From the NCBI RefSeq assembly GCF_013307245.1, contig NZ_CP028941.1, positions 186,001 to 250,000 on the forward strand: 64,000 nucleotides of DNA, given 5' to 3'. Positions 5,579 through 10,089 of the stretch are shown in pieces. Positions within the stretch are counted from its first letter, which is position 1. The number at the start of each line of letters is the position of its first letter. The DNA is from Polynucleobacter antarcticus. GTDB taxonomy: Bacteria > Pseudomonadota > Gammaproteobacteria > Burkholderiales > Burkholderiaceae. The notes under the pieces were generated by a model that worked only from the letters and a program-made list of their open reading frames with translations, did not search any database and was not told the origin of the DNA. A program made the translations under genes and the position numbers.

Positions 5579-6739
5579 ATGTTGAATTGGGAAGAACAAG
5601 TTGCCCCAGCGTTTTTGAAGTCGGGTATTGCACCTCAGCCACTGGCTGCGGAGCAAGAGCGTCCAAAAATAGAAGAGGTTGCGCTAGCCCCATTGGCTGC
5701 AATCGTGGCAGAAAAAATGACTAGTCGCGTGAATGTGGCTGATAAACGCATCATTAACGCTAAGACAGACGTGAATCAGCTAGTGCCATTTAAGTACAAG
5801 TGGGCTTGGGAAAAGTATTTGGCAGGTTGCGCTAACCATTGGATGCCCCAAGAGATCAATATGAATCGCGATATTGCGCTTTGGAAAGATCCTAATGGTT
5901 TAACTGAAGATGAGCGTCGCATCATTAAGCGCAATCTTGGTTTCTTCACCACAGCAGATTCTTTAGCCGCAAACAATATTGTTTTGGGTACTTATCGACA
6001 TATTACGGCTCCAGAATGCCGTCAATACCTATTGCGCCAAGCTTTTGAAGAGGCAATTCATACTCACGCGTACCAATATATTGTCGAATCTTTGGGTTTA
6101 GATCAGAGCGAAATCTTTAATGCGTACAACGAAATTGAGTCGATTCGTGCGAAAGATGAGTTCTTAATTCCGTTTATCAATGTATTAACGGACCCAAACT
6201 TTAAGACTGGCACATTAGAAAACGATCAAAAATTACTTCGTTCACTAATAGTTTTTGCTTGCGTAATGGAAGGTTTGTTCTTTTATGTTGGTTTTACGCA
6301 AATACTTGCAATGGGTCGCCAAAACAAAATGACAGGTGCTGCTGAGCAGTATCAATACATCCTTCGTGATGAGTCGATGCACTGCAATTTCGGGATTGAT
6401 TTAATTAATCAAATCAAGCTGGAGAACCCCCAGATATGGACTTCCGAGTTCAAAGACGAGATCAAATCGATCTTCGAAAAGGCAGTGGAATTAGAGTACC
6501 GTTATGCAGAAGATACGATGCCTCGTGGAGTACTCGGAATGAACGCGCCGATGTTCAAAGGTTACCTAAGATACATCTGTAATCGCAGATGTTTGCAAAT
6601 AGGACTTGACGCCATGTTCCCAAATGAAGAGAATCCATTCCCATGGATGTCAGAAATGATTGATCTGAAAAAAGAGAGAAACTTTTTTGAGACACGCGTT
6701 ATTGAGTATCAAACTGGTGGTGCGCTAAGTTGGGAGTAG
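5579..6739 (+). CDS. nrdB: Ribonucleoside-diphosphate reductase, small (beta) subunit
   Basis: Houses the di-iron centre and tyrosyl radical for NrdA. The 386-residue protein has metal-ligand motifs EEAIHTHAY and [15 protein letters not shown], and an acidic C-terminal tail ending GGALSWE that would dock on NrdA. The Tyr in HTHAYQY lies where the radical tyrosine is expected. A strong ribosome binding site, GAGGAGA (5567-5573), sets ATG 5579 as the start. It is the second gene of the nrdAB operon and a terminator follows at 6882. Confidence 0.96.
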
Positions 6740-7069
6740 TAGTCAGTTAAGCGCATAGCCGGCTAAATAGGAGAGTAGACGGTTGGATAGTTTTAAAAGT
6801 CAGCAAAACCAGACTCAAATCCGAAAACCCTTGTCCAAGGGCGCCTGGATTACTCTCTCTATTTTTTCAAGCAAATTTAAGAAGCCGTTTCCTTTTGGGG
6901 TCACGGCTTTTTTTCCAAGATTCATTAGCGTGCAGCACCTAGTTTCAAGCCGCGCGCCGATGAATGGCTCGCTCGTCTTCTCCAATATGCTGCAAAGCAA
7001 GGCGGAAATGAATGGTCGGGTCTTCTTAATCGGTAGTTTGTATTAATCTTCACGTGAAGGAGTATTACT
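6740..7069 (+). other. 330-bp gap between nrdB and the H1-like gene
   Basis: This stretch holds the nrdB terminator and the leader of the next gene. An 87-codon open frame from TTG 6783 crosses the terminator hairpin and resembles nothing I know, so I do not call it. A 12-bp palindrome CTTCACGTGAAG (7048-7059) overlaps the GAAGGAG ribosome binding site of the H1-like gene. No RNA gene was recognised. Confidence 0.5.
6882..6914 (+). terminator. Rho-independent terminator after nrdB
   Basis: AAGCCGT (6882-6888) pairs with ACGGCTT (6903-6909), followed by a T-run to 6914. It is about 140 bp after the nrdB stop. Confidence 0.75.
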
Positions 7070-7339
7070 ATGGCAATCGCCAAGAAGAAAGTTGCTGCAA
7101 AGAAGCCTGCTGCTAAGAAAAAAGTAGCTGCAAAGAAGCCTGCTGCTAAAAAAGTAGCTAAAAAGAAGCCTGCTGCTAAAAAAGCTGCTGCAAAGAAGCC
7201 TGCTGCAAAGAAGAAGCCTGCCGCTAAAAAGCGTCCAGCTGCTAAAAAGAAGCCTGCTGCTAAAAAAGCTGCTGCAAAGAAGCCTGCTGCTAAGAAGAAG
7301 CCTGCCGCTAAAAAGCGTCCAGCTGCAAAAAAAAAGTAA
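7070..7339 (+). CDS. Lysine/alanine-rich histone H1-like DNA-binding protein (zero-frame product)
   Basis: An 89-residue protein made almost only of K, A, P, V and R in KKPAAKK-type repeats. It resembles the C-terminal tail of eukaryotic H1 and the H1-like nucleoid proteins of betaproteobacteria, and should bind DNA by charge. GAAGGAG at 7056-7062 supports ATG 7070. The gene stops at TAA 7337-7339 directly after an A9-G tract. The -1 frame continues in matching composition to 7461 and ends in a tail typical of this family, so the full product is probably 130 residues. Either frameshifting or an indel in the tract could explain this. Confidence 0.85.
   Translation: MAIAKKKVAAKKPAAKKKVAAKKPAAKKVAKKKPAAKKAAAKKPAAKKKPAAKKRPAAKKKPAAKKAAAKKPAAKKKPAAKKRPAAKKK
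7163..7330 (+). repeat. Near-perfect 84-bp tandem duplication in the H1-like gene
   Basis: Two adjacent 84-bp units (7163-7246 and 7247-7330) differ at only two positions by eye. Each encodes 28 residues beginning KKPAAKKAAAKKPAAKKK. The length is a multiple of three, so the frame is kept. The near identity, even at third codon positions, points to recent duplication or ongoing slippage. Confidence 0.85.
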
Positions 7340-7461
7340 GTAAGCCTGCTGCGAAGAAAGCGGGCAAAGCTGTAAAAAAGCCCGTGGCTAAAAAAGCTGC
7401 TGCTTCAACAACGTTGAATCCTGCTGCTGCTTGGCCCTTCCCAACTGGCACACGCCCGTAA
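7327..7461 (+). other. Candidate -1 frameshift site and C-terminal extension of the H1-like protein
   Basis: The zero frame reads AAA AAA AAG TAA through an A9-G tract (7327-7336). This gives the slippery heptamer A AAA AAG, as in E. coli dnaX. A 7-bp stem, 7344-7350 with 7359-7365 (one G-T pair), starts seven bases later, a suitable spacer. After a -1 shift, 41 more codons (7336-7458) continue the K/A/P style and end LNPAAAWPFPTGTRP before TAA 7459-7461. From memory that tail is conserved in related H1-like proteins. The alternative is a missing A in a homopolymer, by mutation or sequencing error. Confidence 0.65.
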
Positions 7462-7489
7462 GCTTCGGCTTGTAGGCATGTGAAGTTCA

Positions 7490-7517
7490 AAGGGATCTCT
7501 CACGAGATCCCTTTTTT
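7490..7517. terminator. Strong terminator between the H1-like gene and the convergent PfkB kinase gene
   Basis: A perfect 10-bp stem, AAGGGATCTC/GAGATCCCTT (7490-7499 with 7504-7513), has a 4-nt loop and is followed by a T-run to 7517 on the plus strand. It lies between convergent genes and may also end the minus-strand transcript. Confidence 0.88.
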
Positions 7518-7554
7518 ATTATCTAAAAAGAGGCATTCTGCTATTAAGTCGCCC

Positions 7555-8514
7555 CTATAGTGCAAAGCCAAATGCGGTTTTAAACTGAGATCCAATCTGA
7601 TCTTTGCTCATTTGGTGATTTTGTGGTCCCTGGTGGGCAATTTTGATGGAGCCCATCAAACTGGCTAGCCTTCCAGTGGTTTCCCAATCCATGTCATTTT
7701 CTAGTCCAAACAATAGCCCACCACGAAATGCGTCGCCACATCCAGTTGGATCCACTACTTTTGCTGCTGGAACTGATGGAATTGCGATGCATTTACCAGC
7801 ACAGTAAATATCAGCCCCTTCCGCACCTTTAGTAACTATCAGCGCTTTTACTCGTTCTGCTACTTTTTCTAGACTGAGGCCAGTACGCTGAGACAGCATT
7901 TCTCCTTCATAGTCATTGACTGCTAGGTAGCTTGCAATATCAATCAACTCTAAGAGTTCAGGACCATTAAACATCGGTAAACCTTGGCCTGGATCAAAAA
8001 CAAATGGAATGCCTGCTTCAGCCAGCTGATGGCAATGTTCCCACATACCTTGACGTCCATCTGGCGCAACTATTCCAAATTTGGCGACCCCTTTTTGATT
8101 CTGAGTGCGCTCTTTTACTGCTGCGGATACTAAGTTGAGGTGAGAGTCATTCATAGCCCCAGGATGAAAAGCAGTGATTTGATTATTAGCCTGGTCAGTG
8201 GTGATCATAGCTTGGGCTGTAAAGCCGGTTTCAATTTGACGAATATGCGCTGTATCAATCTTTAGTTGCTTTAATCGATCGAGATAAGGAGCGGCATCAT
8301 TTCCAACGGTGGCCATGATGATCGGATCACCGCCAAGAAGCTGAAGGTTGTAGGCAATATTGCCTGCGCATCCACCAAATTCTCGGCGCATTGTCGGTAC
8401 GAGAAAGGCCACATTAAGAATATGAATCTGCTCCGGCAGAATTTGGTCAGCAAATTTGCCTTCAAAGTTCATGATGGTGTCGTAAGCAATAGAACCACAG
8501 ATCAAGCTAGCCAT
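7555..8514 (-). CDS. PfkB-family carbohydrate kinase (adenosine kinase-like)
   Basis: A 319-residue ribokinase/PfkB-fold sugar or nucleoside kinase. It shows the glycine pair GGCAGNIAYNLQLLGG (PfkB signature 1, about residues 47-62) and DPTGCGDAFRGG near the C-terminus (signature 2, holding the catalytic Asp and anion hole). In most members the latter reads GAGD; here it is GCGD. The overall form resembles the adenosine kinase-like proteins annotated in betaproteobacteria, but substrate cannot be read from sequence. It is 60 bp downstream of prmA on the same strand and may share its transcript. Confidence 0.85.
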   Translation of the reverse strand: MASLICGSIAYDTIMNFEGKFADQILPEQIHILNVAFLVPTMRREFGGCAGNIAYNLQLLGGDPIIMATVGNDAAPYLDRLKQLKIDTAHIRQIETGFTAQAMITTDQANNQITAFHPGAMNDSHLNLVSAAVKERTQNQKGVAKFGIVAPDGRQGMWEHCHQLAEAGIPFVFDPGQGLPMFNGPELLELIDIASYLAVNDYEGEMLSQRTGLSLEKVAERVKALIVTKGAEGADIYCAGKCIAIPSVPAAKVVDPTGCGDAFRGGLLFGLENDMDWETTGRLASLMGSIKIAHQGPQNHQMSKDQIGSQFKTAFGFAL

Positions 8515-8574: not shown

Positions 8575-10089
8575 TTAAGGATAAAAAATTCTGACGCGGT
8601 AGCCCGCAGTATTCGGCGGAAGTGCAATTGGGAATTGCAAACGGTACATTTCCCCAGAGGGTGCACCGCGTGTTAAAAATTGAGGATGCGCATCTTGCCA
8701 AGTTTGAGGCACCCATGCTTGAGGATTAAATTGAATCGTTTGAATTTCTGATTCCTCTGCATCTGTGAGGAAAATTTCTAAATGCGGGAATAAAACAGGA
8801 ATTGCTAGACGATTTTGTAATGCGACTGCAACCATGGATTGATTTGAGGCGATTTTAAGGCCCTCTCGTGCATTTTCAGTAGATAAGGTGGCTGAAGTTA
8901 TTTGCCATGCAGAAAAATCGCTTACAGGGCGATTTATGCACCCTAGTACGCTACACAATTTTTCATCAAACTTTTGCAAAACAGAAAAAGCAGTACTTGC
9001 TACAGGATGAGATGAGCCATCAATTCGAGTAGCCAATACTGGCAGAAGCGTATTTCTGGAAAGGTGTTCGCCAAATACGACGAGTAGCACTACAAGAAGA
9101 CTGAGGAGAATGAACTTAAGTCTTTTTTTTTGAGCTGGCACTGGTACGTGAGCTTTTTTTTCTGTCAGGGTGCCTTGTAGGCAAACCCAACCTTCACTTT
9201 CTTTCCAAACCGATAGGCTGAGCCACTGGCTATAAGTAGCAATCACCTCGTCAGCTTGTCTAGCAAGCACACCGGATAAAATAATTCTTCCGCCAACTCG
9301 CATTTTATTCACGAGGGCTGGGGCAAGCACTTGAAGTGGATTGGCTAGAATGTTCGCCATCACGATGTCATACTTTGTTTCTGCTGCTAGCTCTGGGGCA
9401 TTCTCATTGGGCAAAACAAAGCAAATGCTCACCTTATTAATTTCCGCATTGCTATTGGCGGCTACCATCGCTTGAGGATCAATATCTGTTCCGACTACAG
9501 GATTGCAGCCTAGTTTTGCTGCGGCAATCGCCAGAATTCCGGAGCCACAACCATAATCTAAGAGACTTTGATTTTGAAGATTAGTGTTTTGTTCTAGCCA
9601 AAGCAGGCAAAGATGGGTAGTAGGGTGGCTACCGGTACCAAATGCTAAACCGGGATCAACCGCTAAACAAATTGCTTGCGGGTCAGTAGGTGCTTCATGC
9701 CAAGAAGGGACGACCCAAATGCGCTCTCCAATTTGAATGGGAGCAAATTGACTTTGCGTGAGGCGCACCCAATCTTGCTCTTCAACAATCCGCTCTTGAG
9801 GTATTGGTAGATGAAAGCCACTCTCTTTGAGGGACTCGAGCAAGGTTGAAACAAAGTCTGCATCGCCGGAATGATCTAATTCAGGATTAAACAGTGCTGT
9901 GACGGAAGAGCGATCCCACGCTTGAACTTCAGGAGAGAGACCTGGTTCGCCATATAGCGGGTTTTCATCGTAACCGCCAGCGGCATCATCCTCAACAGTT
10001 ACCGAAAGTGCGCCTACCTCCAGTAATGCGTCTCCTAAAGGTTCGGCAATTTCAGCGGGTACCGTGAATATGAGTTCACGATAAGACAT
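8575..10089 (-). CDS. prmA: Ribosomal protein L11 methyltransferase PrmA fused to a membrane-anchored DUF3426-like domain
   Basis: Residues 1 to about 308 are a complete PrmA, the SAM-dependent enzyme that trimethylates ribosomal protein L11. The sequence shows the AFGTGSHPTT signature, SAM motif LDYGCGSGILAIAA and NILANPL. A basic stretch (321-325) and a transmembrane helix (about 323-340) follow. A C-terminal domain then has DEKLCSVLGC and ends AGYRVRIFYP, which fits DUF3426. In related bacteria the DUF3426 domain is usually a separate protein with an N-terminal zinc ribbon just after prmA. Here the ribbon is absent and the ORF is continuous to 504 residues. Minus-strand order is accB-accC-prmA. 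Confidence 0.9.
   Translation of the reverse strand: MSYRELIFTVPAEIAEPLGDALLEVGALSVTVEDDAAGGYDENPLYGEPGLSPEVQAWDRSSVTALFNPELDHSGDADFVSTLLESLKESGFHLPIPQERIVEEQDWVRLTQSQFAPIQIGERIWVVPSWHEAPTDPQAICLAVDPGLAFGTGSHPTTHLCLLWLEQNTNLQNQSLLDYGCGSGILAIAAAKLGCNPVVGTDIDPQAMVAANSNAEINKVSICFVLPNENAPELAAETKYDIVMANILANPLQVLAPALVNKMRVGGRIILSGVLARQADEVIATYSQWLSLSVWKESEGWVCLQGTLTEKKAHVPVPAQKKRLKFILLSLLVVLLVVFGEHLSRNTLLPVLATRIDGSSHPVASTAFSVLQKFDEKLCSVLGCINRPVSDFSAWQITSATLSTENAREGLKIASNQSMVAVALQNRLAIPVLFPHLEIFLTDAEESEIQTIQFNPQAWVPQTWQDAHPQFLTRGAPSGEMYRLQFPIALPPNTAGYRVRIFYP

Follow-up and report, generated by a model that had tools for sequence, protein, structure and literature searches.

An A9 Tract Conserved across Polynucleobacter Probably Gives an H1-Like Gene a Short and a Long Product by Slippage

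Introduction

In Polynucleobacter antarcticus, the reading frame of a gene for an H1-like protein closes directly after nine A's and a G, and another frame, shifted by −1, stays open beyond the stop. The question that this locus raises is whether the gene makes two products and, if so, which machine changes the frame. A sequence-only reading had proposed a programmed −1 ribosomal frameshift that yields forms of 89 and 130 residues, with an indel in the homopolymer as the rival explanation. To our knowledge, few chromosomal genes of bacteria undergo programmed slippage or frameshifting, apart from mobile elements, dnaX, prfB, and certain secretion genes.

Results and Discussion

Layout of the Locus and Proposed Slippage

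The window, that is, the whole stretch of 64,000 nucleotides that was analysed, belongs to a genome of one contig (2.15 Mb). The relevant features are as follows, in window coordinates.

7070-7339, + strand: zero-frame ORF of the H1-like short form, 89 aa, ending GCA AAA AAA AAG TAA
7327-7335, + strand: A9 run, the proposed slippage site, followed by G at 7336
7330-7336, + strand: heptamer A_AAA_AAG, in phase with the zero frame as read from the codon phase
7337-7339, + strand: zero-frame stop TAA; the third frame is also shut two codons on (AGT AAG TAA)
7336-7461, + strand: tail in the −1 frame, 41 codons and a stop, with GTA (7336-7338) first, the stop at 7459-7461, and the end LNPAAAWPFPTGTRP
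7344-7350/7359-7365, + strand: 7-bp stem with an 8-nt loop and one G-U pair, a predicted fold and candidate element 7 nt past the heptamer
7489-7514, + strand: terminator-like hairpin and then T's, 27 nt past the tail stop
8575-10089, − strand: fused PrmA-DUF3426 ORF, both Pfam domains above cut-off
9123-9131, − strand: A9 run in the PrmA-DUF3426 linker, a probable twin site
about 9154-9161, − strand: A8 run in the PrmA-DUF3426 ORF, a side observation

The A9-G tract, the AAA AAA AAG TAA end, and the phase of the heptamer are, base for base, as the sequence-only reading had described them, and the same holds for the 41 open codons of the −1 frame with their stop and end, and for the stem with its loop and spacing in the predicted fold. 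The short form is a Lys/Ala/Pro-repeat protein. Upstream of its gene lies what we take to be nrdB, and downstream, on the other strand, presumably a PfkB-type (adenosine-kinase-like) gene. Terminator-like sites number two in the region against 1.3 expected from shuffles, and an Rfam search of positions 6700-7700 gave a single match, far under the cut-off.

In the reading that we favor, with a probability of roughly 0.9, the gene would make a short and a long product by slippage at the A9 tract. The unslipped reading would give the 89-residue form ending KKK-stop, and a slip of one A (net −1 frame) would join the 41-residue tail to it, giving a 130-residue form; the remaining frame would end two codons on. 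That RNA polymerase is the main machine, inserting an extra A in the transcript, is a part of the proposal that we hold with moderate confidence, with ribosomal −1 slippage on the A9 tract as an alternative or a contributor. Two other routes to the tail have also been considered. Stop readthrough was rejected on reading the sequence, as what follows TAA in the zero frame is short and differs from the conserved tail, and reinitiation inside the tail is unlikely, judged in the same way.

Conservation of the Frame Break

A degenerate pattern for the tail end matched 150 of 186 same-genus genomes, its reversed control giving no match, and a DNA search of the 37 genomes in which the pattern match was missing or unlisted found 23 more tails. 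The loci read number 173, from 172 genomes. Their frame class was assigned by reading from the start codon (on cut contigs, by the frame that is open) and made no use of the heptamer or the run. The tail is in the −1 frame in 142 loci, in frame in 28, and in +1 in two; the one unclassed locus (L005) lies on a cut contig and has A9-GTAA. The sequence-only reading had named, as evidence that would speak against it, close relatives that are all continuous and have no slippery site; with 142 of 173 loci out of frame, this is not what is found.

The AAAAAAG-TAA break is at this site in 140 of the 142 −1 loci, P. antarcticus included, and the counts that follow leave out L047 and L050, which break at other sites. 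In L047, the zero frame breaks earlier, within the repeats, and the nearest row in a weak tree of 336 nt of nrdB, L132, is in frame. L050 has an apparently separate break, GCA AAA AAG TAG; an A10 run lies just before it, and the tail frame is open from there as well.

The run is A9 in 129 of the 140 loci, A8 in nine, and A10 and A6 in one each, so that 139 have A8 or longer at the frame break; the heptamer is in phase and the zero-frame stop is TAA in all 140, and the third frame is shut after two codons in 139, these counts not being independent because the gene is made of repeats and the species are related. The tail spans 37-45 codons and its frame is never lost.

Homopolymers are generally error-prone, and a sequencing or assembly error, or a pseudogene, could in principle produce such a break. 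Nothing in favor of it was found for this site, and we consider this explanation extremely unlikely, given that the break is identical in 140 separately assembled genomes of the genus and that the tail is under purifying selection (see below). The indel named as the rival in the sequence-only reading is excluded by this conservation.

No tail was found in 14 of the 186 genomes, 10 of which are less than 85% complete; the other four are 84-99% complete (G122 85, G151 87, G161 92, and G134 99%). In a scan of 84,980 named species genomes, A7-GTAA with the start of WPFPT 85-112 nt on was found in 78 contigs, such a match alone not being proof of frameshifting. The contigs are titled Polynucleobacter or betaproteobacterial/Burkholderiaceae MAGs, plus one Clostridia. 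This last contig (L304, titled uncultured Clostridia bacterium) has a Polynucleobacter-type site and is probably a mis-binned MAG contig.

In a sample of the family, the tail pattern is present in 258 of 299 genomes, or in 224 of 259 when 40 same-genus genomes are taken out. All 30 loci read from one other genus (code g12) are in frame, as are 14 of 16 from other genus codes, the remaining two (L185 and L188) being unclassed by the script.

Because 44 of these 46 loci of other genera are in frame, with two unclassed, the in-frame state looks ancestral. This favors an explanation in which the break is a tolerated lesion: the A-run lost one base long ago, slippage compensates for this to a sufficient extent, and the short form has no function of its own. 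Such an explanation agrees with the proposed slippage on the mechanism and differs from it in function only. Rescue by poly-A is moreover a known outcome, according to the part of PMC4256274 drawn on here. However, return to frame in a homopolymer should be easy, yet it is rare here, in a genus in which the kinase-like neighbor goes down to ~70% identity.

Selection on the Tail

Among 106 main-clade loci, comparing tails of equal length by codon position of the −1 frame gives 2050/2025/6773 differences, and dN/dS over the whole tail is 0.255 (562 pairs). The basal frameshift clade (12 loci) shows 0/0/124 differences over the last 18 codons. The tail pattern occurs once in the P. antarcticus genome. 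Position-biased differences, low dN/dS, and a single copy of the tail together argue that the frameshift species very probably do produce the tail as protein.

For the last 12-18 codons, dN/dS is 0.15-0.27 in main-clade frameshift loci, ~0.07 in in-frame loci of the genus, and ~0.03 in other genera. Constraint on the tail is thus present, but weaker in the main frameshift clade than where the gene is in frame, which again fits a tolerated lesion.

Run Length and Heptamer

The genome of P. antarcticus has only nine runs of at least nine A or T, compared to ~27 predicted by a zero-order and ~80 by a first-order model, both fitted to the window. In a permutation of synonymous codons over 155 genes, runs of A8 or longer outside the tract number three against 127 expected. 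At the tract itself, A is the last base of the codon that precedes the final AAA AAA AAG at 131 of 140 sites, compared to 27 of 857 for codons preceding AAA AAA in other parts of the heads; this preceding A is not required for the heptamer. The length of the run therefore looks selected, as far as such counts can tell.

The same does not apply to the heptamer. Whenever A9 precedes a GTA of the tail frame, the zero frame necessarily reads A_AAA_AAG, so that the presence of the heptamer in phase at every locus, which agrees with ribosomal frameshifting, is not independent evidence. As proof of a ribosomal mechanism it was rejected, since any so phased A-run of six or more, followed by G, contains it. 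Elsewhere in the genes, in-phase A_AAA_AAG occurs 138 times against 143 expected in frameshift genes and 17 against 32 in in-frame genes. The partial avoidance in the latter is in favor of the ribosome; the former show no avoidance, which counts against it, as does a run kept beyond the need of the heptamer. The nine A8 loci and the one A6 locus speak, in turn, against the polymerase. The A6 locus (L204) belongs to a genome of 1.6 Mb (G032, with L204 and L412) in which the H1-like gene is drifting to Glu and prmA is in pieces, and which looks like a decaying one.

Among the runs of the P. antarcticus genome, the conservation of A9 was traced for the H1 tract, the prmA linker, and two control ORFs. 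The control in a Lys-rich ORF matched four of 30 other genomes, three of which aligned across the run, and none of the three has A9. For the second control, in an ORF that we take to be DegT-like, 30 other genomes yielded no homologue that could be used.

Stem and Other Candidate Ribosomal Stimulators

In E. coli dnaX, a stem and an SD element stimulate the frameshift. We have considered whether the H1-like site is of the E. coli dnaX type, with programmed −1 ribosomal frameshifting at A_AAA_AAG and the downstream stem. The spacing of the stem is suitable, and the only tRNA-Lys among the 40 tRNA genes read has the anticodon UUU. Stems of at least 7 bp are present in seven of the 12 basal-clade loci, against 6% in random synonymous tails. 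In the main clade, they are present in 102 of 128 loci, which at 80% versus 44% in random synonymous tails, with a mean z of −0.62, is modestly above random. The fold of the 84-nt stretch has a z of −1.32, with 21 of 200 shuffles equally or more stable. The stem claimed as a stimulator is thus well placed, but in the main clade it is not clearly better than its random synonymous versions.

A scan for a set of SD-like motifs 5-20 nt before the heptamer gave no match in any of the 140 loci. Change at 4-fold sites is low directly after the site, as ribosomal frameshifting would have it (0.032 in tail codons 1-10, 0.151 in later codons, and 0.216 in nrdB), and we give this little weight because many later columns are equally invariant (42-codon group). 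Looked at as a positive control, dnaX of the P. antarcticus genome has its sole AAAAAAG on the locus strand just past the gene end, by arithmetic. When stimulators are lacking, the best heptamers of this kind reach ~0.3% in E. coli (PMC4066793), which also weighs against the ribosome. All in all, frameshifting of this type appears doubtful as the main route. From the original proposal of a programmed −1 ribosomal frameshift, the net −1 change at the A-tract is supported, and with it, on sequence evidence, the two probable forms of 89 and 130 residues from one gene; a ribosome driven by heptamer and stem is not established, because the heptamer is a by-product of the run and the stem is not clearly above synonymous random.

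In-Frame Lineages

Among the 28 in-frame loci of the genus, 15 keep A10 (14 loci) or A11 (one locus) near the tail, followed by (G)TAGTTAA, with varied flanks (L023, L106, L114, L122-L124, L132, L138, L140, L147, L149, L153, L213, L221, and L222). Read from the sequences, the unslipped frame in all 15 is the long one, and a slip of one base either way hits a stop within three codons. Slippage at these loci would hence make the short form. A pure rescue leaves unexplained why these loci keep both the run and the close out-of-frame stops, and together with the rarity of return to frame this makes us regard a lesion without function for the short form as rather unlikely.

A tree of NrdB and the kinase-like protein (53 rows, of which five are outgroup rows) places the frameshift loci in a basal group and a main clade, with in-frame lineages between them and the outgroup rows in frame. 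In-frame loci are also present in the basal part of the tree (L211 and L213). At least five state changes are needed on this tree, gains and losses being inseparable by these counts. The main clade, with 133 loci, has 128 in −1, three in frame (L030, L032, and L151), and two in +1. In L032 the run is A7, and in L151 one base is inserted ahead of the run. In L020 and L046, A8 after GC sets the tail in +1, a real change or an assembly error.

Another possibility is phase variation at the DNA level, in which the run length switches between cells and thereby turns the tail on or off. The homopolymer would permit this, and a few tips do differ (L020, L046, L032, and L151). However, random switching would yield a mixture between the sampled genomes and the main clade is nearly of one state, so that phase variation is very improbable.

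As a further observation, two H1-like genes from another genus code of the family (L191 and L192) are in frame and have A8-G ~200 nt before the tail stop, followed by TAGTAG in L192.

The Neighboring prmA-DUF3426 Gene

Two of the long A/T runs of the P. antarcticus genome (nine or more) lie in the window, namely the H1 tract and a run in the PrmA-DUF3426 linker, whose gene is a neighbor of the H1-like gene at 1.8 kb. We have read 50 linker loci, comprising the 30 best matches and 20 further, mostly more distant ones, out of matches in 60 of 61 genomes. The linker run is A9 or longer in 43 of the 50, A8 in one, and lacking in six, although linker length and sequence vary. The reading frame continues past the tract in 41 of the 43. 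Gaining an A in these 41 brings a stop after 0-8 codons; losing one does so after 0-9 codons, or after 28 in L375. In one of them, L394, a stop follows 111 codons after the PrmA end motif. In the basal loci L405 and L408, the unslipped frame ends directly after PrmA, whereas the frame reached by one added A stays open for 199 codons, into the DUF3426 part. As judged from these frames, the fusion would need a slip in L405 and L408, and a slip would end the fusion in most of the others.

The codon phase of the linker run differs from that of the H1 tract. The run looks like the same device, a probable twin, and would thereby support run length over heptamer, even though a ribosome could also slip at the linker, on A_AAA_AAA. 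That run length is kept in the in-frame lineages too, and in prmA in other codon phases, points rather to transcriptional slippage. We tentatively put forward a broader idea, namely that rare A9 runs act throughout the genus as a punctuation that makes C-termini optional, at least in these two neighboring genes. Here a conserved A9/A10 would split short from long products, and in almost every locus the other frames are shut a few codons on; single-A changes would flip the default form, and selection would hold slippage and not a given frame.

Identity of the H1-Like Protein

The tail is, as had been suggested, the C-terminal signature of full-length H1-like relatives, judging by the Burkholderiaceae H1-like loci that have it in common with Polynucleobacter. 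The cut-offs of the family profiles themselves are not reached by the sequences scored. For NF038053 (cut-off 80 bits), the short form scores 31.3 and the in-frame relative L004 70.9. For PF07382, HC2 (gathering cut-off 40 bits), the values are 32.5 and 35.7, respectively, and the tail alone gives 11 bits at the profile end (174-194). We therefore call the product H1-like, rather than a member of NF038053.

The histone H1-like proteins of Burkholderiales (NF038053 and PF07382; BpH1 and Hc2) likewise consist of Lys/Ala/Pro repeats in variable number, according to the part of PMC2848022 drawn on here. The other genera read code the gene in a single frame, whereas most Polynucleobacter loci have the tail in −1. 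Both forms would probably act as DNA-binding proteins of the nucleoid, the long one carrying the C-terminal signature and the short one lacking it.

Comparison with Known Systems

In the parts of the cited papers used here, the closest precedent is tssM1 of Citrobacter rodentium and tssM3 of Yersinia pseudotuberculosis, where poly-A transcriptional slippage at an A-run gives a short and a long product of one gene (PMC4256274). There, slippage yields the long form in one species and the short form in the other, which parallels the two kinds of lineages found here. The tssM run is A11, with a measured slippage of 15-25% (about 20-25% for tssM1) (PMC4256274), and the present case, with A9 (A10/A11 in in-frame lineages), is known from sequence. 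It differs further in belonging to another gene family and in its genus-wide record.

The transcriptional slippage of Thermus thermophilus dnaX, as described in the portion of PMC1088944 considered, likewise has nine A's, close stops in the other frames, and two products. The unslipped product is the long one there, whereas for the H1-like gene it would be the short one. In E. coli dnaX, the −1 frameshift is ribosomal and occurs at A_AAA_AAG (PMC5009743, in part). The heptamer, the single tRNA-Lys UUU, and a downstream stem are common to both sites; the H1-like site differs in its long run, in having no SD-like element, and in a stem that is not clearly selected. The outcome is also opposite, since frameshifting leads to the short product in E. 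coli dnaX and a slip would lead to the long one here.

Conserved frame transitions at A-runs are found among the GeneTack frameshift clusters, e.g., magnesium chelatase (PMC3711429, in part). Three test cassettes gave 10% for 7 As, 40% for 9 As, and 63% for 11 As, the latter two being magnesium chelatase cassettes. The words histone and Polynucleobacter are absent from the main text of that paper. In the portions consulted of the open-access literature on H1-like frameshifting, Polynucleobacter frameshifting or slippage, and PrmA (including PMC9227772), no description of the site was found.

Conclusions

A nucleoid-type protein that keeps two-form coding, very probably with two products, throughout a genus represents an unusual record. 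ORF callers would report the short ORF and overlook the conserved tail, and a like design seems to recur in the gene at 1.8 kb. The natural A6, A8, A9, and A10 variants, together with the in-frame flips, constitute a ready mutant series. They make two matters accessible to experiment, namely which machine slips and whether the ratio of tailed to untailed H1-like protein is of any consequence.
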